From NCBI GenBank assembly GCA_903918755.1, contig CAIXFN010000076.1, positions 62,001-126,000 of the forward strand: DNA of 64,000 nt. The letters are read 5' to 3'. Shown here piece after piece: positions 10,529 through 20,711 of the stretch. Every line of letters starts with the position of its first letter. The stretch's first letter is position 1. The position numbers and the translations under genes are program-made. Source of the DNA: an uncultured Pedosphaera sp. GTDB lineage: Bacteria > Verrucomicrobiota > Verrucomicrobiia > Limisphaerales > Pedosphaeraceae. The notes below the pieces were generated by a model. It did not search any database. It saw nothing but the letters and a program-made list of their open reading frames with translations, and had not been told where the DNA came from.

Positions 10529-12055
10529 TCAAGCGGCCCCACCGAGGCTGGCGTCGGAATCCTTGATCACAAAACGGGCGCGCAGTCGCGCCACTTCCGT
10601 GGCGAGTCCGGCGAGCCGGACGGAGTTCAGAACCTCGTTGAAGTCCTTATACGCCGCCGGGGCCTCGTCTTTCGGATACTGGCGGCAGTTCGTCAGGATA
10701 TCGTGAGCCGTGAATTCCGCATCCACGGTGGTTTGATCCAATTCACGAATGGCGGCCTTGCGGCCCCGGGCACGGCCTGCGCCGTGATTGACGCTGAAGC
10801 AGCTTTTCTCCGCGCCCGCATCCGCCACCATCACGCATGAACCCGCGGTCGGATTGCCCGGTAACAGGATCGGGTGCCCGGTTTCATAATACGGGGTATC
10901 CTTGAGTGCGAAATGCCCCGCCGGCACCGCGCGCGTGGCCCCTTTGCGATGCACCCAGCACTCCTGTTGTCCGACCAGCTCGCGCCGGGCGATATTATGG
11001 CTGATGAAATACACCAGCGCGCCACGGGTACCGGGAATGACCTCCTGAAACGCTTCCAGCACCAATGCGTTGATCAACAGGTGATTCACCGTGGCAAAGT
11101 TCGCGCCGAGCGCCATGTCGTCGAGGTAGTTATCCGCTTCCGGGGTGCCGAGCGGGGCGTACACGAGCTCCCGGTCGCCGCCCGGGAGCGGGATATCCCA
11201 CTGGGCGAAATGGTGTTGCAAGGTGCGGAACTGGTCCGTGGCCAGATGGTGACCAAACCCGCGGGAACCGCAATGGGAGAGGAACGCGACCCCGCCATCA
11301 CGGAGACCGAAGACCGCGGCCGCCCGGCGGGCGCGATCGTTATCCGCCACCTGCACGGCTTCGCACTCGCCAAAATGATTGCCCCCGCCATAGGAACCCA
11401 ATTGCCGAACCTTGTCGGCGAACTTCGGGAATTTGCCGTCGCTGGTGAGCCGATCCAACCGGGCGACCAGATCTTCCCGTTCCTGATTATGTCCCACGTG
11501 GAAAGCGTCCTCGCAACGCAAGGCCCATTCCGGGGGAATACCCAATTCCCGGCACACGCCGGCGGAAGCGCCTTCCGTGACCACCCGGCGACCGGTTTCC
11601 TCGGTCACCGGACGGCTTTGCTTCACATTTCGTTGGCCTTTACCCGCGCCGGTCGGAGTCCGTGCCGTGATGGCATCGATCAGAGCGCGGCGGACGGTCT
11701 TGTTCGCCACCGCGTCCGCGGGCAGATCCAGTTGCAAGAGGCTCATCGAGCATTTGATATCTACCCCGACCGGGCCCGGGTAAACGTGCGTCGGCGAAAC
11801 CAGCACACAACCCACCGGGGCGCCGTAACCAGCGTGGGCGTCGGGGTTCAGGACCAGGTCGGTCACACCGGGGCCACCGCGGGAATTGAGCGCCTGTTCG
11901 AGGCAGCGCGCATCAAAGCCATCGCGGATCGCGGCGGTACCGATGACGGTGATCGGTTTGCCGCGGTTCCCGGGAGCGGGGAGAAAGCCGGTGGCTTCGC
12001 CGGTCGGCTGGATGGCGGGTTTGGTAGCGGCGTCATTGATCGGATTGTTTTGCAT
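10529..12055 (-). CDS. rtcB: RtcB-type RNA ligase
   Basis: A 508-residue GTP- and manganese-dependent ligase that joins RNA 2',3'-cyclic-phosphate (or 3'-P) to 5'-OH ends. Metal and guanylylation motifs are visible: 'NPDAHAGYGAPVG', 'GPVGVDIKCSM' with C102, 'GSYGGGNHFGE', 'SHCGSRGFGHH' and 'VNHGAGRARGRKA', whose His is the guanylate-accepting one in the family. The usual DIGCGM is DIKCSM here, and the usual 'SxSHGAGR' is 'SVNHGAGR', so this belongs to a divergent subgroup. Start ATG at 12055 has no strong Shine-Dalgarno. It is divergent from rtcR and has a sigma-54 promoter 35-50 bp upstream, so RtcR very probably controls it. Confidence 0.9.
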   Translation of the reverse strand: MQNNPINDAATKPAIQPTGEATGFLPAPGNRGKPITVIGTAAIRDGFDARCLEQALNSRGGPGVTDLVLNPDAHAGYGAPVGCVLVSPTHVYPGPVGVDIKCSMSLLQLDLPADAVANKTVRRALIDAITARTPTGAGKGQRNVKQSRPVTEETGRRVVTEGASAGVCRELGIPPEWALRCEDAFHVGHNQEREDLVARLDRLTSDGKFPKFADKVRQLGSYGGGNHFGECEAVQVADNDRARRAAAVFGLRDGGVAFLSHCGSRGFGHHLATDQFRTLQHHFAQWDIPLPGGDRELVYAPLGTPEADNYLDDMALGANFATVNHLLINALVLEAFQEVIPGTRGALVYFISHNIARRELVGQQECWVHRKGATRAVPAGHFALKDTPYYETGHPILLPGNPTAGSCVMVADAGAEKSCFSVNHGAGRARGRKAAIRELDQTTVDAEFTAHDILTNCRQYPKDEAPAAYKDFNEVLNSVRLAGLATEVARLRARFVIKDSDASLGGAA

Positions 12056-12089
12056 AAAGAGAAACTTGGTTTTCGTTACTGGAGCTGAC

Positions 12090-12106
12090 TAGCAGCCGGT
12101 GTGCCA
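12090..12106 (-). promoter_or_regulatory. sigma-54 promoter of rtcB
   Basis: Minus-strand TGGCAC (complement of 12101-12106), then N5 and CTGCTA, giving the required GG-N10-GC spacing (GG and GC at the -24 and -12 elements). The predicted start of transcription is ~25 nt before the rtcB ATG. The divergent neighbour encodes the sigma-54 activator RtcR. Confidence 0.75.
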
Positions 12107-12241
12107 GCGGGTGATTGCGGCGTGGCGACCAGGTTTTCCGCCAATGAAATCAGGCCAAAGCAGTGGTTTGGACGGTGATGTGGATCGGGATTGCCCACAA
12201 CCGATGATTAGCGTATCGTCTAAAGCACAAGCGGATAAGCT

Positions 12242-13843
12242 ATGAATTCCAAGAAGCGGGTTATCATTGGACTCCTGGGGAGCGTGCTGGATGCCGGGTT
12301 TCGCGAGGACCGGTGGCAGAAGTGGCGTCCCACGGTTTCGCTCTGTCAGCAGGCGGATTGGCCGGTGGATCGTTTTGAACTGCTGTATGATCCGCAATTT
12401 CAAGACACCGCCAAGGTCGTCATGGCCGACATGGTCCGGCGGTCCCCGGGCACGGAAGTGCGGGGAACCGCGCGGGCATTGGCGGATCCCTGGGATTTTG
12501 AGGAAGTTTATGCGGCGCTGCACGAATTCGCGCGGGGCTACCCGTTTCAGCCGGACACGGAGGATTACCTGGTGCACATCACGACCGGGACGCACGTGCA
12601 GCAAATCTGCCTCTTTTTGCTGACGGAATCGCGGCATTTTCCGGCGCGGCTGGTGCAGAGCTCTCCGGCGGACCCCCGCCGCCGCGGTTCGGGCGGGCGC
12701 CACACGGTCATTGATCTGGACCTTTCCAAGTACGACCGGCTTGCGGCGCGCTTTGGCACGGAAAAGCGGGATGCCAGCATGGTGCTGAAATCCGGCATCG
12801 CCACGCGCAACCCGGCGTTCAATCGCCTGATTGACCAAATCGAGTTGGTGGCGATTGAGGCGCGTGACCCGATCCTGCTGACCGGTCCCACCGGTGCGGG
12901 AAAATCCCAATTGGCGCGGCGGATCTATGAATTGAAGAAGTCCCGGCACCAAATCACGGGCCCTTTCGTGGAGGTGAATTGCGCGACCTTGCGCGGGGAC
13001 GCGGCGTTGTCCGCACTGTTCGGGCATGTGAAAGGGGCGTTCACGGGAGCGGTCAAGGAACGGGCCGGACTCTTGCGCATGGCGCATGAGGGTCTGCTCT
13101 TCCTGGATGAAATTGGCGAACTGGGATTGGACGAGCAGGCAATGCTCTTGCGCGCGGTGGAAGAAAAGCGGTTCCAGCCTTTCGGCGGCGATGCGGAAGT
13201 CAGCAGCAATTTCCAATTGATCGCGGGCACCAATCGATCCCTGGCGGAGGCCGTGCAGGAGGGCCGCTTTCGGGCGGACCTGCTGGCGCGGATCGATCTC
13301 TGGACGTTTCAACTGCCCGGTTTGCGGGAGCGACCCGAGGATGTGGCGCCCAACCTCGACTACGAGTTGGAACAATTCACCGCGCGCCAGGGGCGGCGGG
13401 TGACCATGAGCGCGGAAGTGCGGCGGGAGTTTCTGGAGTTTGCCCAGTCACCCGCGGCGTTGTGGAGCGCCAATTTTCGCGACCTGAACGCCTGCGTGAC
13501 GCGACTGGGCACTTTATCCCCCGGGGGACGGGTGACTCCGGAGGTGTTGCGGGAGGAAATGGGCCGGTTGCAGGCCGGTTGGACCCCGCGGGGCGGCAAA
13601 GGGGAAACCACGGATATCCTGGGCAGCGTGATGAGTGAGGAGGCGCGGGCGGGGATCGACCTGTTCGACCAGGTGCAACTTGCCTTTGTAATCCGCACCT
13701 GTCGGGATTCCGCCACGCTCTCGGAAGCGGGTCGCAAGTTATTCGCGGCCACGCGGGGGCAACGCAAGACCGCAAATGACGCCGACCGGTTGCGCAAGTA
13801 CCTCGCCCGGTTCGGGCTGGAATGGGGGATGGTGAAAGGCTGA
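12242..13843 (+). CDS. rtcR: sigma-54-dependent activator RtcR with N-terminal CARF-like domain
   Basis: A 533-residue transcription activator. Residues 1-~180 are the RtcR N-terminal domain ('IIGLLGSVLDAG', 'YDPQFQDTAKVV', 'YLVHITTGTHVQQICLF'), which has a CARF-like fold thought to sense a cyclic or terminal-phosphate nucleotide ligand. Residues ~190-430 are the AAA+ sigma-54-contact domain: Walker A 'GPTGAGKSQLA', 'FGHVKGAFTGAVKERAGLL' containing the GAFTGA loop, and Walker B 'GLLFLDEIGELG'. The C-terminus (~470-533) is a Fis-like or winged helix ('TLSEAGRKLF', 'ANDADRLRKYLARFGL'). It is divergent from rtcB, as in many bacteria, and no rtcA gene lies beside it. Sigma-54 activation of rtcB is inferred from the promoter at 12090-12106. 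Confidence 0.92.
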   Translation: MNSKKRVIIGLLGSVLDAGFREDRWQKWRPTVSLCQQADWPVDRFELLYDPQFQDTAKVVMADMVRRSPGTEVRGTARALADPWDFEEVYAALHEFARGYPFQPDTEDYLVHITTGTHVQQICLFLLTESRHFPARLVQSSPADPRRRGSGGRHTVIDLDLSKYDRLAARFGTEKRDASMVLKSGIATRNPAFNRLIDQIELVAIEARDPILLTGPTGAGKSQLARRIYELKKSRHQITGPFVEVNCATLRGDAALSALFGHVKGAFTGAVKERAGLLRMAHEGLLFLDEIGELGLDEQAMLLRAVEEKRFQPFGGDAEVSSNFQLIAGTNRSLAEAVQEGRFRADLLARIDLWTFQLPGLRERPEDVAPNLDYELEQFTARQGRRVTMSAEVRREFLEFAQSPAALWSANFRDLNACVTRLGTLSPGGRVTPEVLREEMGRLQAGWTPRGGKGETTDILGSVMSEEARAGIDLFDQVQLAFVIRTCRDSATLSEAGRKLFAATRGQRKTANDADRLRKYLARFGLEWGMVKG

Positions 13844-13887: not shown

Positions 13888-16200
13888 TTAATAGGAAATG
13901 ATGCGATAGAATTTCCGCGGACCACTTAGCGGCACGGTATAAGGGGAGGTCGTGGAGTAATCAATCTGCCAGGGACCGGTGAGGCTGGTCGCTTCTTCGA
14001 GCGTGCCGGAAGGCCAGGACAACTGCAACTGGCCCCCAGGCAGCAACAGGTAGGTCAGGCTGACCGATTCGCCGGCCAGGAATTCCACCTCAGCGATTTG
14101 GGCGCTGTTGGCGGTGAGATTGTTCTTCACATTCGTATAGGTCAGGCGGTAGGTCAGGTACGCAGTGGCATTGACGAAACCGACCTCCTGGTTGAAGAGG
14201 TTGATCGGGTCGAGTGCCTGGCCAGTGTTGTTGCGGTCATCCGGAAGGGTGAGCGTGCCGCTAACGATTGGAGTGAAGGTGCTGCCATCTTGCGAGCCTT
14301 CCAGCAGGAAATCCGCCGGATCACGTTCGGGAGAATCATTGGCGGTATAGAAGCGCAGGCCCGTCACGGTGGAACTGCCCAGAGAGGGGGTGACCATGGC
14401 ACCCACCGGACCGACAAACGGAGGGAAGCCGGTGCCATTACCAAAGTTGAGGTATTTCTGGGTCGTGCCGTCAATAATGTTGCCCACAGTTTCGGCGACC
14501 GGGGTGCTGCCATTGACCTGGCTGGTGGGATCACCGGGCACGGTGACGGGGGAGCGGGAGGTCACGACGTTGAGTCGCGCCACGCTGCTGGTCACGGAGC
14601 CGAGGGCGTTGCTTGCGATGACGCGGTAAAAGCCGTAATCACCCAGGCTGGCGGGGCTGACGGTCAGATTAGTCGTAGCGGAGCCGGAAATGCTGTTGGC
14701 ATCGGTGAGATTGCCAAAGGTAAGATTATCGGAAGATTTTTGCCAGAAAGTGCTGAGCGGTGGGGTGCCGGAAACCAGGGTGGACAAGATGACCGCAGTG
14801 GCGGCCTGGGCGTTGAGCGAAACCGGCTGCAGTCCGATCACCGGCGGCACGGCCCCGCCGGTGCCACTCATCGCGAAGAAGGCGGCGACCCCGGAGGAGG
14901 TGTTGCCCGCATCCCAGGAAAGGCTCACATTGGTAACGGGACTCGTGGTGTCGGCGAGGGTGATGTCCAGGGAGTAGAGGCGGGGATTGCCGCTGCTGAC
15001 GCCATCAAATATGCCGGAGGTGGCGTCGACGCGGCCGTTGGCCGTCACCGCCACCGGAGTATTGAAGTACCAGTCCGGTACCGAGACGACGCCGGTTTCG
15101 AGCGTGCCATCGAGATGACTGACGCCGTAATCCACCAGAATGGGTCCATGTCCCGCCGCCGCGAGGAAGGAGAGGGCGGCGTAAGTGGCGTTGGTGGCGG
15201 GAACGAAGTTGGCGGAGATGGTGGCGTCCACATAACCTACATTGTTCGTGCGGTAACTGGGGGCCATTTTATATTGATGATCCAAGGCGGAGGCACTGGC
15301 CACGGTGGAACCAGCCGCGGGCAGACCGGTGGCCGTCGCGGCGGTATCAAAACCGGCCGCGTACCAAACGTAGGCGGTGTTGGCGGTGCCGTTGTCCATG
15401 GTGGCGGTGGTATAGGCCCCGGCCGGGGGCAAATGCTGGGCCCCGGCCTCAATGATCACATCCTGGTTATAGCCGGAGACCGCGATGGGCGAATACGCGC
15501 CGCCGGAGAGCCCGCTGACGGCGAAGATGCAAGCGTGGCCGCCGGAGACGCGGTTAAAAGTAATGCTGGTGACGGGGCTGGCGGGATGGGCGAGGGAGAC
15601 ATCCGCGGAGTAAAGGCGGGGATTGCCGGAGTTGACGCTGTCGAAGCCCAGGCTTACGGCATTGACCCGGCCGTTGGCCGTGTAAGCGACGGAAGCGCCA
15701 CCAAACCAGTCGGAGGCGGTGAAGTTGCCGGTGTCCGTGGTGCCGTCCAAGTGATGGACCACAAAGGCCACATTCGCCGAGCCATTCCCGGAAGCGACGA
15801 GGAAGGAGAGCCCGGTGTAGGCAACCGGGGTCACGGCCGCAAACGTGCCGGTCGTGACCGAGGAATCAATCAGGATGACGTCGTTGGTTTTGTAACTGGG
15901 CGCCATGCGGTAGCTGTGCGTGCTCGAGGCGGCACTATTGAAAGAACTCCCGGCCGCGGGAAGCCCGGTGGCGGGTGCGGAAGTATAATAGCCCACTTCG
16001 TAGAAGGTGGCCCCGGTGTTGGAGGGCCCGTTGTCCACGGTGGCGGTGGTTGCTGGAAGGGGACGTTCTACAACCATATCCTGGTTGTAGCTGGCCTGGG
16101 TCAGCCGGATGGGCGCGAAATCGGCGGATGCCGCATAAGCCAGCAACATGGTTCCGGCAATTAGCGGGTAGGTACGGGCTCGGATATTTGGATTATTCAT
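13888..16200 (-). CDS. secreted protein with two tandem ~220-residue modules, Ig-like domain and C-terminal Verrucomicrobial module
   Basis: A 770-residue protein with a signal peptide (MNNPNIRARTYPLIAGTMLL... cleaved near ADFAP). Two tandem modules follow: the first begins 'ASYNQDMVVERPLP' and the second 'VSGYNQDVIIEAGAQ'. They share 'SYRMAPSYKTNDVI' / 'QYKMAPSYRTNNVG', 'HHLDGTTDTG' / 'SHLDGTLETG' and 'SGNPRLYS'. Around residues 455-545 is an Ig-like domain ('YGFYRVIASNALGSVTSS'), then a discoidin-like region ('RDPADFLLEGSQDGSTF'). The end, 'LQLSWPSGTLEEATSLTGPW...FYRI', is a short module common at Verrucomicrobial protein ends. It may be a surface or adhesive protein; function unknown. It is separated by 274 bp from the upstream operon, and I see nothing recognisable in that gap. 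Confidence 0.75.
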   Translation of the reverse strand: MNNPNIRARTYPLIAGTMLLAYAASADFAPIRLTQASYNQDMVVERPLPATTATVDNGPSNTGATFYEVGYYTSAPATGLPAAGSSFNSAASSTHSYRMAPSYKTNDVILIDSSVTTGTFAAVTPVAYTGLSFLVASGNGSANVAFVVHHLDGTTDTGNFTASDWFGGASVAYTANGRVNAVSLGFDSVNSGNPRLYSADVSLAHPASPVTSITFNRVSGGHACIFAVSGLSGGAYSPIAVSGYNQDVIIEAGAQHLPPAGAYTTATMDNGTANTAYVWYAAGFDTAATATGLPAAGSTVASASALDHQYKMAPSYRTNNVGYVDATISANFVPATNATYAALSFLAAAGHGPILVDYGVSHLDGTLETGVVSVPDWYFNTPVAVTANGRVDATSGIFDGVSSGNPRLYSLDITLADTTSPVTNVSLSWDAGNTSSGVAAFFAMSGTGGAVPPVIGLQPVSLNAQAATAVILSTLVSGTPPLSTFWQKSSDNLTFGNLTDANSISGSATTNLTVSPASLGDYGFYRVIASNALGSVTSSVARLNVVTSRSPVTVPGDPTSQVNGSTPVAETVGNIIDGTTQKYLNFGNGTGFPPFVGPVGAMVTPSLGSSTVTGLRFYTANDSPERDPADFLLEGSQDGSTFTPIVSGTLTLPDDRNNTGQALDPINLFNQEVGFVNATAYLTYRLTYTNVKNNLTANSAQIAEVEFLAGESVSLTYLLLPGGQLQLSWPSGTLEEATSLTGPWQIDYSTTSPYTVPLSGPRKFYRIISY

Positions 16201-16474: not shown

Positions 16475-18286
16475 TTATTTCAAGCCCGAAGCGGGCACAA
16501 AGCGTTCATCGGTGAGGGTTTTCAAAAAGGCGACAAGGGCCTGCTGGTCAGCCGGGCTAAGGTTTAAGCCCCCTTCCGGATGTTTGGCCAGATTCGGATC
16601 CAGTGTGGGACTGCGGGTGACGCCAGTGCAATAGTGCGCCACGACCGCCGCCAGCGTGGGGAAACGTCCGTCATGCATATACGGGGCGGTCACCGCGACA
16701 TTGCGCAGGGAGGGCACTGCGAATTTTCCCCGGTCCCCGTCGCGCTGCGTGGCGATGGCCCGGCCGGAGTCCTTGGGAGCGGCATCCAATCCGTTATTGG
16801 CAAACGCCTGACTTTGAAACAGGGGCCCGCCATGGCAGTGGAAACAATCCGCCCCAAACTGGCCATGGCGCGGGTCGTACTCGGTGTGAAACAACGCGAA
16901 GCCGTGCTGCTCCTCCGGGGACAACTGGGTTTCGCCGGCGATGACGCGGTCAAACTTGGAATGGTGCGAAACCTGGACCAGGAGGAATTGCTCCAACGCG
17001 CGGGCGAGGCGGTCCGCGGTGATCGCGGGGGTGCCAAATGCCCGGCGGAAAAGCTCCGGATATTCCGGCGCGCGGTTCAATTTGGCGACGACATTCGTCA
17101 GGCTTTCATGCATCTCCAGGGGATTTTGGATAGGCTGCAGCACCTGCTCACGGAGTGAGGGGGCGCGGCCATCCCAGAAGAACGATGACTTCCAGGCGAG
17201 ATTCAACAAGGGCATGGCGCTGCGGGCGCCGCTTTGGCCTTCCGCGCCAATACTGACGGCGCGGCCATCGGTGAACGCCTTGGCGGGCTCATGGCAACTG
17301 GCGCAGGATTGGAAGTCGATGGCCGAGAGGCGTGCCTCGTTAAAAAGGCGCCGTCCGAGCGCCACGCCTTCTTCCGTCAGGGGATTGTCGCGCGGCAAGG
17401 CCGGGCGCGGGAAAAAGGCCGAGATGGTCAGGCGATACGGATGGGCATCAGGGGCCATGACGATGGTGCTTAATGCTTCAGCGGGGGCGGGAACGGCGTC
17501 CACGGGAGTAATCGAAGTGCCGGCGGTTTGAACCAATCGAAAGGCTGAGACGACATTTTCCCGCAACTGATCGGCCAGGAAGTCATTGGTGCGGGAATGC
17601 GTGGAACAGTTTTCGGCGGAAAGGTGGAGGGGCCAGGGTTGGGAAAACACCTCCTGGAAGTCCCAAACCAAACGTAATTTGGCCAAAGTCCCCGCGGGGG
17701 CGGGAAGGGGAACTTCCACGCGCATCAATTGGCGGTCGGTAGCCAGGTGGAAGGAATACCCGCCGGTCTGGCCGTCCGGTTGCCGCCAATTCCCCTCCAG
17801 GGCCAGAAAAACGTAGCCACCCTGCCAGCCCCAATGCAGGCCGTTGACGCTCGGGTGGAGAGGGTGGTTCGGAGGGTAGTCATTCGGACTACGGTGGTTG
17901 ACTTCCGGAGGCAGGCCGAGGGAAAACCGGAGTCGATCCCACGGGCCAGCCGGGGTGGCAGGGACAGTGAACCCCAGTCGTCCCTCGCGCGCCGACAGAT
18001 AGGCGAAGAAATTGGTGGCTTCCCACCAGGAACCGTCCGACCGCCGGAGACCCACCCCCGAGACGAGGCAATCCAGCCGGGTCACCGAAATGACCTGGCC
18101 CGCTGAAGTAACATTCGTCAGCGCATCCAGCACCAGGGGTTGGCTGCGGAATTCGGGCTGGATCTCCACCCGCAGCGGGACTTCCCCGGGGGAACGGAGC
18201 GTGGAGAGGAACATGGCCAGGGCCAGCAGGCTGCGCCGAAAGGACAGCCCAAACGGAAGGCCTGGTGAGGTGTGCGCCGAGGTCAT
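16475..18286 (-). CDS. MbnP-like domain fused to a dihaem MbnH/MauG-family peroxidase
   Basis: A 603-residue exported protein (signal peptide with 'LLALAMFLS'). Residues ~36-255 resemble MbnP: 'PLRVEIQPEF', 'NPDY..HPLHPSVNGLHWGWQGGYVFLALEG' in pieces around 135-165, and 'LRLVWDFQEVF'. The H-x-W-x-W-Q-x-G-Y stretch is the family hallmark. Residues ~285-600 are a bacterial cytochrome-c-peroxidase/MauG module with two haem motifs, C328-ASC-H332 and C481-FHC-H485, plus 'NLAWKSSFFWDGRA', 'NPLEMHESL' and 'VAVTAPYMHDGRF'. In methanobactin operons MbnH is known to oxidise a Trp of MbnP to kynurenine, creating a copper site; here substrate and enzyme are joined in one chain. It lies 18 bp behind the YHYH gene. 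The copper role is inferred. Confidence 0.75.
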   Translation of the reverse strand: MTSAHTSPGLPFGLSFRRSLLALAMFLSTLRSPGEVPLRVEIQPEFRSQPLVLDALTNVTSAGQVISVTRLDCLVSGVGLRRSDGSWWEATNFFAYLSAREGRLGFTVPATPAGPWDRLRFSLGLPPEVNHRSPNDYPPNHPLHPSVNGLHWGWQGGYVFLALEGNWRQPDGQTGGYSFHLATDRQLMRVEVPLPAPAGTLAKLRLVWDFQEVFSQPWPLHLSAENCSTHSRTNDFLADQLRENVVSAFRLVQTAGTSITPVDAVPAPAEALSTIVMAPDAHPYRLTISAFFPRPALPRDNPLTEEGVALGRRLFNEARLSAIDFQSCASCHEPAKAFTDGRAVSIGAEGQSGARSAMPLLNLAWKSSFFWDGRAPSLREQVLQPIQNPLEMHESLTNVVAKLNRAPEYPELFRRAFGTPAITADRLARALEQFLLVQVSHHSKFDRVIAGETQLSPEEQHGFALFHTEYDPRHGQFGADCFHCHGGPLFQSQAFANNGLDAAPKDSGRAIATQRDGDRGKFAVPSLRNVAVTAPYMHDGRFPTLAAVVAHYCTGVTRSPTLDPNLAKHPEGGLNLSPADQQALVAFLKTLTDERFVPASGLK

Positions 18287-18304: not shown

Positions 18305-20134
18305 TCAGTTGACCACAAAACCATTCGGAAGGCTGTAACTGACCGTTTGCGTGGGATTGTTGGGCGGACCGGGAAATGCCACCGTCACCGTCTGGGGTCC
18401 CGGAGTTGCGCCCGCGGGAATCGTGATGCGCGTGGTGACCACGGTCTGGCTGACGTGCGCGCTGACGGAGCCGGTGAGGGAACCAACCGTCACGGAATTG
18501 ATGGGAGCATTCTGCGGCGGGAGCGGCGGGACGGCATTGGGGTCGAGGTTGATGGTCAGGGTAAGAGTGTTGCCATGGAGGCCGGTGGGTGGGGATACAC
18601 TGAGAATACCACCGTTGCCACCGCCACCACCACCGCCGGTGGTCGAACCGGTGTCATAGGTCGCCAGGCCGGTGAGGGCCACGCGGTAGAATTGCCGGCC
18701 GGTGTTGGCGAGGTTGCTGCTGGTGAGGCTGGCCTGGTTGTTCGTGGCGGCCACCGCGGTGGCGTTCGTGGTCCAAGCGCTGAGGTTGGTGGTGGATTCC
18801 ACCCGATAGGTGCCGCCTTCAACCGCGCTCCAGGTCAGCGTGACGGTGGTGTCGCTGCGCCGGGGTGAATGCAGGACCAAAGCCGAGTTGGCCGCACCGA
18901 GAAAATTTGTGGTGACCGTCTCGGTGATCGTGGTTACTGAACCACCAGTGACGTTGCCATTCAAGGCCCGGCCCACGTGGTAGGGGAAGAGGGGAGTGCC
19001 GGTGGGATCGATGGTGATAAAATAGGCGTAGGTGCCATTCGGATAATCCGGGGTGATCCCGAAGCGGCCGTTGTGGGTGTCGAGATCGAAATCCACGCCG
19101 ACTTGATAAAGCTGGCCGGTGGCCGGGTTGGTCAGGTCGCCCTGGTAATCATTGTCCTCAATGTAGCGTCCGAAAGGATAGCTCGGGGAGACGGCGGTGC
19201 CAGATTGGAAAACCGACGAACCGTAGAAGCGGGCGGCCCAGAGCGGGAGGGTGTTGCGACCGGCGGCGGTCAGGTTCACGGTGCCGTGCTGGCCGTCACG
19301 CGGGACGAATCCGCCAATCATCCGGCGCACCGGGCTCGCCGGGTTGGTGGGATTGGAATAGGCATAAGGGCCATAGACCGGGTAACCATCGGCGGCCCAA
19401 CCAAGGATGGGCGAGTGGCTGGGATGGAGGTTGTTGGTGTTCTCGCTGTAACTTTGCGTCGCCGCATCGAAGAGCACATTGTCGCCCAGTTGATAGCGCA
19501 GCGCGACCGGATTGGCGTGATAATGATGCGAGCCGGTGTTTTGCTGATGGGCGAAACCGGGGTCAAAGGTTTTGCCCTCGTTGACCCAGGCGTCGCGATT
19601 CCAACTCCCGGTGCCTTGGGCGTCGGCGGAACCATTCCAGTAAAAGGCGTCGCGGCAATCGTACATGGCGACCCCGTCCACAAAATAGCCGATCACCCCC
19701 AAGCCCGTCAGGTTGGTGGTGGTGGCCGCCACCGGCGCGCGGGGAAAGCGCCAGGTGGCATACTGGTTTACCGGGAAATTGGGAAACAAAGTGGTATGCG
19801 CGGCATCGTTGTACCAGGGGCCCATGACGTGGGTGGCGAGTCCGCTGGAGCGGACGTACACCCAATTGGCGGAGGAGTCGATCTCGGACACGCCGGAATA
19901 GGCGGGCTGGGCCTGGGTCTGGCTGCCATTGCTCCAGGTGGTGGCGGAGCTGCGGGCGGCGCGGGCAGCGTCATTGGTGTAAACGCGCGCGTAGGCACCG
20001 GAATAGGTGGTCAGCCACGACGTGATGAGCGGATCGGCCGCCTGGACGGGGTGCAGCGGGGACAGGGTGAGGGTGACGAGAGCCAGCGCAGTGACGACGC
20101 TGGCGCAAGCGCCGGAGGTGCAGCTAGTTTTCAT
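18305..20134 (-). CDS. secreted YHYH-domain protein
   Basis: A 609-residue protein when started at ATG 20134 (MKTSCTSGACASVV, a clear signal peptide ending near VQAAD); an upstream in-frame ATG at 20173 would add 13 unlikely residues. The YHYH domain covers ~40-400: 'ATWRFPRAP', 'VIGYFVDGVAMYDCRDAFYW', 'TGSHHYHANPVALRYQ' near residue 200 (the YHYH motif is HHYH here), 'SPILGWAADGYPVYGPYAY' and 'YEDNDYQGDLT'-like 'IEDNDYQGDLTN'. A ~60-residue Verrucomicrobial module ('TYRVESTTNLSAW...QFYRV') and an IPT/TIG-like C-terminal domain follow. YHYH proteins are thought to bind metal, but none has a firm function that I know. Coupling to the MbnP-MbnH fusion 18 bp downstream suggests a shared copper-linked job. 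Confidence 0.8.
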   Translation of the reverse strand: MKTSCTSGACASVVTALALVTLTLSPLHPVQAADPLITSWLTTYSGAYARVYTNDAARAARSSATTWSNGSQTQAQPAYSGVSEIDSSANWVYVRSSGLATHVMGPWYNDAAHTTLFPNFPVNQYATWRFPRAPVAATTTNLTGLGVIGYFVDGVAMYDCRDAFYWNGSADAQGTGSWNRDAWVNEGKTFDPGFAHQQNTGSHHYHANPVALRYQLGDNVLFDAATQSYSENTNNLHPSHSPILGWAADGYPVYGPYAYSNPTNPASPVRRMIGGFVPRDGQHGTVNLTAAGRNTLPLWAARFYGSSVFQSGTAVSPSYPFGRYIEDNDYQGDLTNPATGQLYQVGVDFDLDTHNGRFGITPDYPNGTYAYFITIDPTGTPLFPYHVGRALNGNVTGGSVTTITETVTTNFLGAANSALVLHSPRRSDTTVTLTWSAVEGGTYRVESTTNLSAWTTNATAVAATNNQASLTSSNLANTGRQFYRVALTGLATYDTGSTTGGGGGGGNGGILSVSPPTGLHGNTLTLTINLDPNAVPPLPPQNAPINSVTVGSLTGSVSAHVSQTVVTTRITIPAGATPGPQTVTVAFPGPPNNPTQTVSYSLPNGFVVN

Positions 20135-20711
20135 AAGCGTTTTAAGTTTGCAGCAATCTGCAGCGCTCAACAAACCACTTCCGTGTTAAGCCTTCATTTG
20201 CGACGCCACTGGAATTGTTAAGGGATTGTAAAATAGTTCGCCCTTCTCGCGACGAAAGCAGCGGTGCTGAGAGCTTGGCAGGCCCGGGTGGAACTCTGCG
20301 CATTGAAAAAAAGGCCGGGCAAAAGAGAAAAGATTTTCAATAATCGGGAGAATCTGATGCCGGAAGCAATCAGGCCGCAACCGCTCTCGGCACCGATCAT
20401 AATTTGCTCTGGAACCACCCGGAAAACTTGAAAAACTCCGATAGCTTAGGAAGGCAAGCTGGGAGGATGGGGCCTTCTGATCGATTTTAGAAATTAGGCA
20501 GGTAGGTCGCGGGCGGATTGTAATGGGAGATTGCCGCCGTCAAAAGGGATGCTGGTCGCGGACCGAAACGGCGTACATAGGCAGTATCATGACAAATACT
20601 TTGATCATGTTAATAACATTAACCCCGAATAATGTGTTGACTTTACAATCTGGATTCTTAAGACTCGCTCCGAGTCGTCCCAATTTCAGCTTTGCCGCAC
20701 CAAACTTTTCT
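20135..20711. other. 577-bp divergent intergenic region
   Basis: This lies between the divergent YHYH and GEVED-protein genes, so it should hold two promoters. A TTGACT at 20637 lies ~70 bp before the GEVED start, but no good -10 follows at proper spacing. The stretch 20585-20700 is noticeably AT-richer than its surroundings. I could not identify an RNA or operator. Confidence 0.3.

Follow-up and report, generated by a model that had tools for sequence, protein, structure and literature searches.

A fused MbnP-MbnH protein in Verrucomicrobiota and the linkage of its gene to YHYH-domain or galactose-oxidase genes

Introduction

In the MbnP/MbnH pair, a tryptophan of MbnP is oxidized to kynurenine by the di-haem partner MbnH, creating a Cu(I) site. 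The first Trp of the MbnP WxW motif is the one converted, and the copper ligands of the solved MbnP are His and Met. MauG, a related di-haem protein, modifies another protein. For CorA/MopE, too, a Cu(I) site with a Trp oxidized to kynurenine is described, together with a co-transcribed di-haem peroxidase-like gene, the role of whose product is offered as a suggestion (PMC3912023). The same paper gives H64 and H114 as CorA ligands together with Kyn62, in a Kyn-x-His arrangement, and mentions that growth persisted after knock-out of a corresponding di-haem gene in another methanotroph, where in the authors' opinion copper may still be bound (PMC3912023). The 2013 methanobactin paper states that the sequence of MbnP bears no marked similarity to those of MopE and CorA (PMC3621798).

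We analyzed a 64,000-nt stretch of DNA from an uncultured Pedosphaera sp. (hereafter the window), in which one gene had been predicted to join MbnP-like and MbnH/MauG-like domains. The encoded protein has in common with the Methylosinus trichosporium pair (7l6g, 6e1c) both families and folds, the first Trp of WxW, an aligned His, two c-haems and the Tyr at MauG position 294. It is one chain whereas the pair is encoded by two genes; its MbnP half has two Cys instead of the four of the four-Cys MbnP type; and it neighbors YHYH or galactose-oxidase genes, whereas the pair neighbors methanobactin genes. The di-haem fold and the Tyr at 294 are also common to MauG, as presumably are a Trp and a Glu near the haems, but MauG acts without a fused substrate domain, whereas in the fusion one is attached in cis. 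W199, which lies next to a haem in MauG, seems unconserved, since by spacing A479 would stand at this place in the fusion. CorA/CorB and MopE/SACCP of methanotrophs are also encoded by two genes in contrast to the single chain, and the residue at +2 after Kyn62 of CorA is His, whereas W154 is found at +2 after W152 in the fusion.

A single ORF for two domains

The fusion gene is a single uninterrupted ORF that carries an MbnP domain and an MbnH/MauG-type di-haem domain (Table 1), which bears out the predicted joining of the two in one polypeptide. The family match of both halves, originally read by eye, was borne out by Pfam searches. The N-terminal half matched MbnP (PF20243) with 83.2 bits against a cut-off of 27 (E 2.8e-23, residues 37-220), and the C-terminal half matched CCP_MauG (PF03150) with 184 bits against 25.6 (E 3.3e-54, best stretch 306-453). 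Scores for the two NCBIfam equivalogs stayed below their cut-offs, at 219.5 against 362.85 bits (E 5.8e-65) for MbnH (TIGR04039) and 37.2 against 140 bits (E 2e-9) for the MbnP with four Cys and WxW (TIGR04052); the four-Cys motif of the latter is absent from the translation, which has 2 Cys in residues 30-250.

Table 1. Features of the fusion gene and the adjoining YHYH-domain gene in the window
Feature	Position	Strand	Basis
MbnP-MbnH fusion gene, 603 aa	16475..18286	-	ORF, Pfam, homologues
N-terminal segment, likely signal peptide, residues 1-35	18182..18286	-	By eye; helix 13-29 in the model
MbnP domain, residues 37-220 (Pfam), fold match 34-254	17627..18178	-	PF20243; 7l6g
H151-W152-G153-W154-Q155, predicted kynurenine site W152	17822..17836	-	Alignment to the MbnP WxW, first Trp
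H180, candidate Cu ligand	17747..17749	-	Alignment to the HVG His of solved MbnP
H230 (in THS), second candidate ligand	17597..17599	-	48/48 fused proteins; frequent in unfused MbnPs
Interdomain linker, about residues 250-296	17399..17539	-	Alignment of 48 fused proteins
MbnH/MauG-type di-haem domain, about residues 297-598	16493..17398	-	Pfam, sequence and structure matches
First haem motif C328-x-x-C331-H332	17291..17305	-	48/48 fused proteins
W371, likely inter-haem Trp	17174..17176	-	48/48 fused proteins
Second haem motif C481-x-x-C484-H485	16832..16846	-	48/48 fused proteins
Y552, at MauG chain position 294 in the alignment	16631..16633	-	Present in 46/46 rows with a residue
YHYH-domain gene, 622 aa (longest ORF; first in-frame ATG 20134)	18305..20173	-	PF14240, E 1.5e-36
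YHYH domain, residues 140-391	19001..19756	-	Pfam PF14240

By sequence, the closest solved relative of the C-terminal half was MbnH 6e1c (E 2.5e-44). The N-terminal half alone gave a weak match to MbnP 7l6g (E 0.44); a profile of 24 N-terminal domains reached E 3.3e-4, with WxW paired to W152/W154 and the HVG His to H180. Both CxxCH haem motifs were found where the original prediction had put them, at H332 and H485. It had also placed an H-x-W-x-W-Q motif near residue 150; the Trp motif is present there, but the actual letters are H-W-x-W-Q, one residue off. Y552 aligned with a Tyr of MbnH and with MauG position 294, the residue altered in the Y294H entry 3orv and presumably the Tyr ligand of the low-spin haem. 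We take W371 to be the equivalent of MauG W93.

Predicted structure

An AlphaFold2 model of the whole chain, built from 71 alignment rows, had a pLDDT of 92.2 and a pTM of 0.89. Superposition by VIA-align gave Z 35.9 over 306 aligned residues (1.9 Å) with MbnH 6e1c, and for model residues 34-254 Z 17.7 over 206 aligned residues (rmsd 3.0 Å) with MbnP 7l6g_D. The di-haem fold was also matched to MauG, with Z values of 28.5-31.4. In structural alignments with 20 bacterial di-haem peroxidase entries the first aligned model residue was 151-154, with the exceptions of 3o5c (from residue 289) and 9qdt (from 68). Because the aligned ranges begin there, the W152 stretch appears to take the place of the N-terminus of the peroxidases, as judged by the first aligned residue only. 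The N-terminal segment of these peroxidases packs on the C-terminal haem domain, against the face that in MauG contacts the substrate. The position of the W152 stretch is no more than suggestive in this respect.

Residues conserved among fused proteins

Conservation was counted in 48 distinct fused proteins after identical proteins had been merged. Loci L001 and L112-L140 were excluded as repeats of loci already counted, whereas G234:C27 and G240:C5 each have a separate second locus, which was included (L045 and L016); L045 and G234:C27 seem to be one record, and so do L055 and G339:C61. Three proteins have gaps or X at some sites, owing to a contig edge (L051), an assembly gap (L052) or a frame break (L022).

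W152 and H180 were present in 47/47 rows covering them and H151 in 46/47, and W154 was found in 45/47 with Pro in the other two. H230 and D235 were kept in all 48 proteins, as were both haem motifs (C328/C331/H332 and C481/C484/H485), W365, W371 and E391; Y552 was kept in each of the 46 readable rows. The linker (residues 250-296) varied from 30 to 53 residues in length, and was 38-42 residues long in 38 of the 48. The invariance of W152, together with the loss of W154 in two rows, fits a first Trp that would be the converted one, as in MbnP.

Spread and origin of the fusion

In a sample of 387 genomes of the phylum, MbnP was detected in 22 genomes at 26 loci (27 search rows, of which one second piece in G108 was dropped). 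At 24 of the 26 loci both domains lie in an intact single ORF; of the other two, G108 has a frame break, and in G121 a DDE-type transposase gene apparently interrupts the fusion gene (L149:4731-8546). An assembly chimaera was ruled out for the window gene by the same two-domain chain in homologues, and chance or chimaeric assembly is excluded by the intact ORFs at these 24 loci. We concluded that MbnP usually occurs as a fusion in the phylum as sampled, and that the layout is not peculiar to the Pedosphaera genome.

In a second collection (genome_contigs), considered for its best 80 loci only, 25 loci had both domains in one ORF, including one truncated by the edge of its contig (L051) and another that contains an assembly gap (L052). 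By their titles, 24 of these were of Verrucomicrobiota type and one was only "bacterium". Separate neighboring ORFs were found at 52 loci (titles: 50 Bacteroidota, 1 Sumerlaeota and 1 Phycisphaerales), and three loci showed the haem domain only (L057, L070 and L111). Split pairs outside Bacteroidota are hardly sampled by these best 80 loci. Where the two are split neighbors, in other phyla, their order is unchanged and the genes frequently share a few bases. Many split loci, mostly of Bacteroidota (L066, L067, L072-L074, L076, L079, L081 and others), have two MauG-like genes after MbnP, and the two take different positions in the haem-domain tree.

In a quick tree built from 134 haem domains, all 48 fused rows and four others fell into one clade (SH-aLRT 97). 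The four are L023, which is cut at a contig end and starts inside the MbnP domain, L057, which lies near a contig start, the MbnH-only gene L025 and the split pair L061. The fused/unfused state changed five times on this tree, with at least three changes forced by starred branches. The simplest account would be one fusion event followed by a few losses or splits. At L061, YHYH, MbnP and MbnH are three close genes, and an ATGA overlap offers a possible start for MbnH, which would then have a signal-like N-terminus of its own. An apparent triple fusion of MbnP, MbnH and YHYH (L052, 1646 aa) was rejected: 33 unknown residues of an assembly gap bridge what are separate genes, and the YHYH portion begins with a signal-like sequence of its own.

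YHYH-domain genes next to the fusion

In the window a YHYH-domain gene lies directly upstream of the fusion gene, with a gap of 18 bp. A YHYH match was found within 8 kb of MbnP at 17 of the 26 loci, on the same strand at 14 and on the opposite strand at three; about 0.02 such loci would be expected by chance, assuming 4 Mb genomes and an even spread. To relate proximity to match length, 85 YHYH rows were reduced to 79 places by dropping five second pieces and G122 (below cut-off). Places beside MbnP made up 17/22 of the matches longer than 650 bases, 2/30 of those of 450-650 bases and 0/27 of shorter ones. As proximity depends on match length, the MbnP link is confined to one YHYH subfamily. 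HMM searches of the available flanks of the split MbnP/MbnH pairs of Bacteroidota found no YHYH match, and the linkage is therefore not general.

Residues H209, H217, H219 and H253 of the YHYH protein were invariant in 14 aligned sequences (window included), and H209, H217 and H219 also in a wider set of 16. Sequence searches up to E 1 gave no solved relative, and the predicted model was of low confidence (pLDDT 47.6, pTM 0.43). We scanned 10 of the 17 YHYH-linked loci, partly picked for long frames, for fused domains. The YHYH protein was fused to a sulfatase at six (G223, G234:C27, G378, G277, G381 and G319) and was without one at four (the window, G018, G169 and G307). YHYH-sulfatase fusions in either order were seen at L045:438-3479, L152:8301-11444, L154-L158 and L160, of which L045 and L155 seem to be one gene, and L160 (G240:C1) is without an MbnP match nearby.

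Galactose-oxidase genes and other neighbors

A galactose-oxidase domain (PF09118) lies within 8 kb of MbnP at 7/26 loci. The domain occurred in seven of the 387 genomes, once each, and all seven copies are 2.4-2.5 kb from the MbnP match on the same strand (about 0.002 expected by chance, assuming 4 Mb genomes and an even spread). YHYH and PF09118 were found together at 0/26 loci, and neither was present within 8 kb at two (G140 and G234:C58).

Six complete galactose-oxidase proteins were 2406-2951 aa in length; five more are cut at sequence ends. By the longest-ORF rule their ORFs start at or near the fusion stop, with a 4-base overlap at 7 of the 11 loci, a 1-base overlap at one and a distance of 19 bases at two; the start at L040 is ambiguous. 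PKD- or Ig-like, lectin or PA14 domains were detected in the 5/11 proteins scanned, and so was a MauG/RoxA-like part, with weak to moderate matches. Conserved in 11/11 proteins are the Cys, Tyr, Tyr-His and His positions, which we take to be the galactose oxidase active site and which were aligned with solved galactose oxidases in L038.

When the fusions on the tree were labelled by partner (11 galactose oxidase, 26 YHYH, and 11 without either, a group that includes short contigs), the galactose-oxidase label required 2 changes compared to 10.1 in shuffles, and the YHYH label 9 compared to 16.1. Partner gene and fusion lineage travel together. Since the galactose-oxidase-linked fusions are essentially one clade, the 7/7 linkage does not represent seven independent events.

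Two-component regulator genes, seen in passing, adjoin at four loci (L044, scanned for the kinase only; L045, scanned for the regulator only; L049 and L153), which is consistent with copper control. A large gene with DUF7133, HEAT and cytochrome c domains lies close to the fusion at L044:3868-7446, and a gene of similar size at L049:4392-8154. Downstream of the fusion in the window, on the same strand, is a 770-aa protein with an Ig-like domain (13888-16200); a stretch that has no Pfam family occurs in it twice, at a spacing of about 212 aa. An RtcB RNA ligase gene (-) is found beside a divergent RtcR-type sigma-54 activator gene (+) at 10529-13843.

Discussion

The best explanation that we can offer is that the fusion is an exported, self-maturing kynurenine-copper protein that supplies copper to co-encoded secreted proteins; we regard it as evenly poised between right and wrong. 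After export, the di-haem C-terminal domain would react with peroxide and reach a high-valent state, in which it would convert W152 in the MbnP half, probably that of its own chain, to kynurenine. The kynurenine would complete a Cu(I) site with nearby histidines, the candidates being H180 and H230. The matured protein would bind copper outside the cytoplasm and hand it to the co-encoded secreted protein, which may be the galactose-oxidase-type enzyme in one clade and the YHYH protein elsewhere, including the window. Self-modification is plausible from the sequences, because W152, the candidate His, the haem motifs and the Tyr typical of MauG are conserved and the linker is near-constant in length. 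The strongest functional clue is the partner genes, which lie beyond the gene that the original prediction dealt with; their linkage suggests that the site of the fusion serves copper supply to a secreted oxidase. Weighing against this explanation are the two missed equivalog cut-offs and the missing four-Cys motif, the lack of an obvious counterpart of MauG W199 (by spacing), the confinement of galactose-oxidase linkage to essentially one clade, the 3/17 YHYH genes on the other strand and the 2/26 loci with neither partner, and the MbnH-only gene (L025) and split pair (L061) within the fused clade. The growth of the methanotroph knock-out reported in the CorA paper (PMC3912023) also belongs here.

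W152 could instead be modified only in trans, or the fusion could serve to fix a 1:1 stoichiometry under one export signal, the protein otherwise working as the split pair does. The conserved order and frequent small overlaps of the split genes in other phyla agree with this, and the ATGA overlap and signal-like MbnH start of L061 indicate that a fusion needs little. The near-constant linker and the pTM of the whole-chain model suggest one fixed domain arrangement, however, and we consider modification in trans or a stoichiometric role possible but rather unlikely. The tight gene linkage could also mean that the MauG-like domain oxidizes the galactose oxidase or the YHYH protein, much as MauG acts on another protein, with the MbnP domain as a docking or copper-sensing part. 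But an invariant W152 would be needless in a mere docking domain, and the Tyr-Cys link of galactose oxidase needs copper and oxygen alone, so that oxidation of the neighbors seems improbable to us. Lastly, the domain fusion and the di-haem peroxidase fold would suit a fusion that is the enzyme itself, a peroxidase with a permanent kynurenine-copper redox site and extracellular substrates; copper supply, however, better explains why the gene is linked to one for a copper enzyme and, at four loci, to two-component regulator genes, and we give such an enzyme little credence.

Returning to copper supply by a self-maturing fusion, a more specific version would make it a dedicated copper-insertion factor that loads the co-encoded oxidase, and the long-form YHYH domain an enzyme not described before, which would depend on copper and attack sulfated polysaccharides. 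The latter part follows from the same logic, the invariant histidines and the sulfatase fusion in several genomes. We hold this version to be unlikely.

What seems to be new here is the MbnP-MbnH fusion layout and its linkage to YHYH or galactose-oxidase genes; both domain families are known. The literature matches listed contain no mention of a fused MbnP-MbnH, although the primary MbnP/MbnH papers may mention fusions; in the literature passages MbnPH denotes the genes, and a fused protein is unmentioned there. Domain databases may list the architecture automatically. Judged by title, none of the literature matches listed links the fusion to galactose oxidase or long-form YHYH, and no title among them is on the YHYH domain.

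With enzyme and substrate in one chain, the fusion is a convenient system for the study of Trp-to-kynurenine oxidation. Copper hand-over becomes directly testable, because the fusion is tied to a well-understood galactose-oxidase-type enzyme by close, mostly overlapping ORFs. The YHYH domain (PF14240) would gain a functional hypothesis, if the proposal is true, and the recurrence of the fusion across one phylum together with its partner genes hints at a dedicated copper-loading device.
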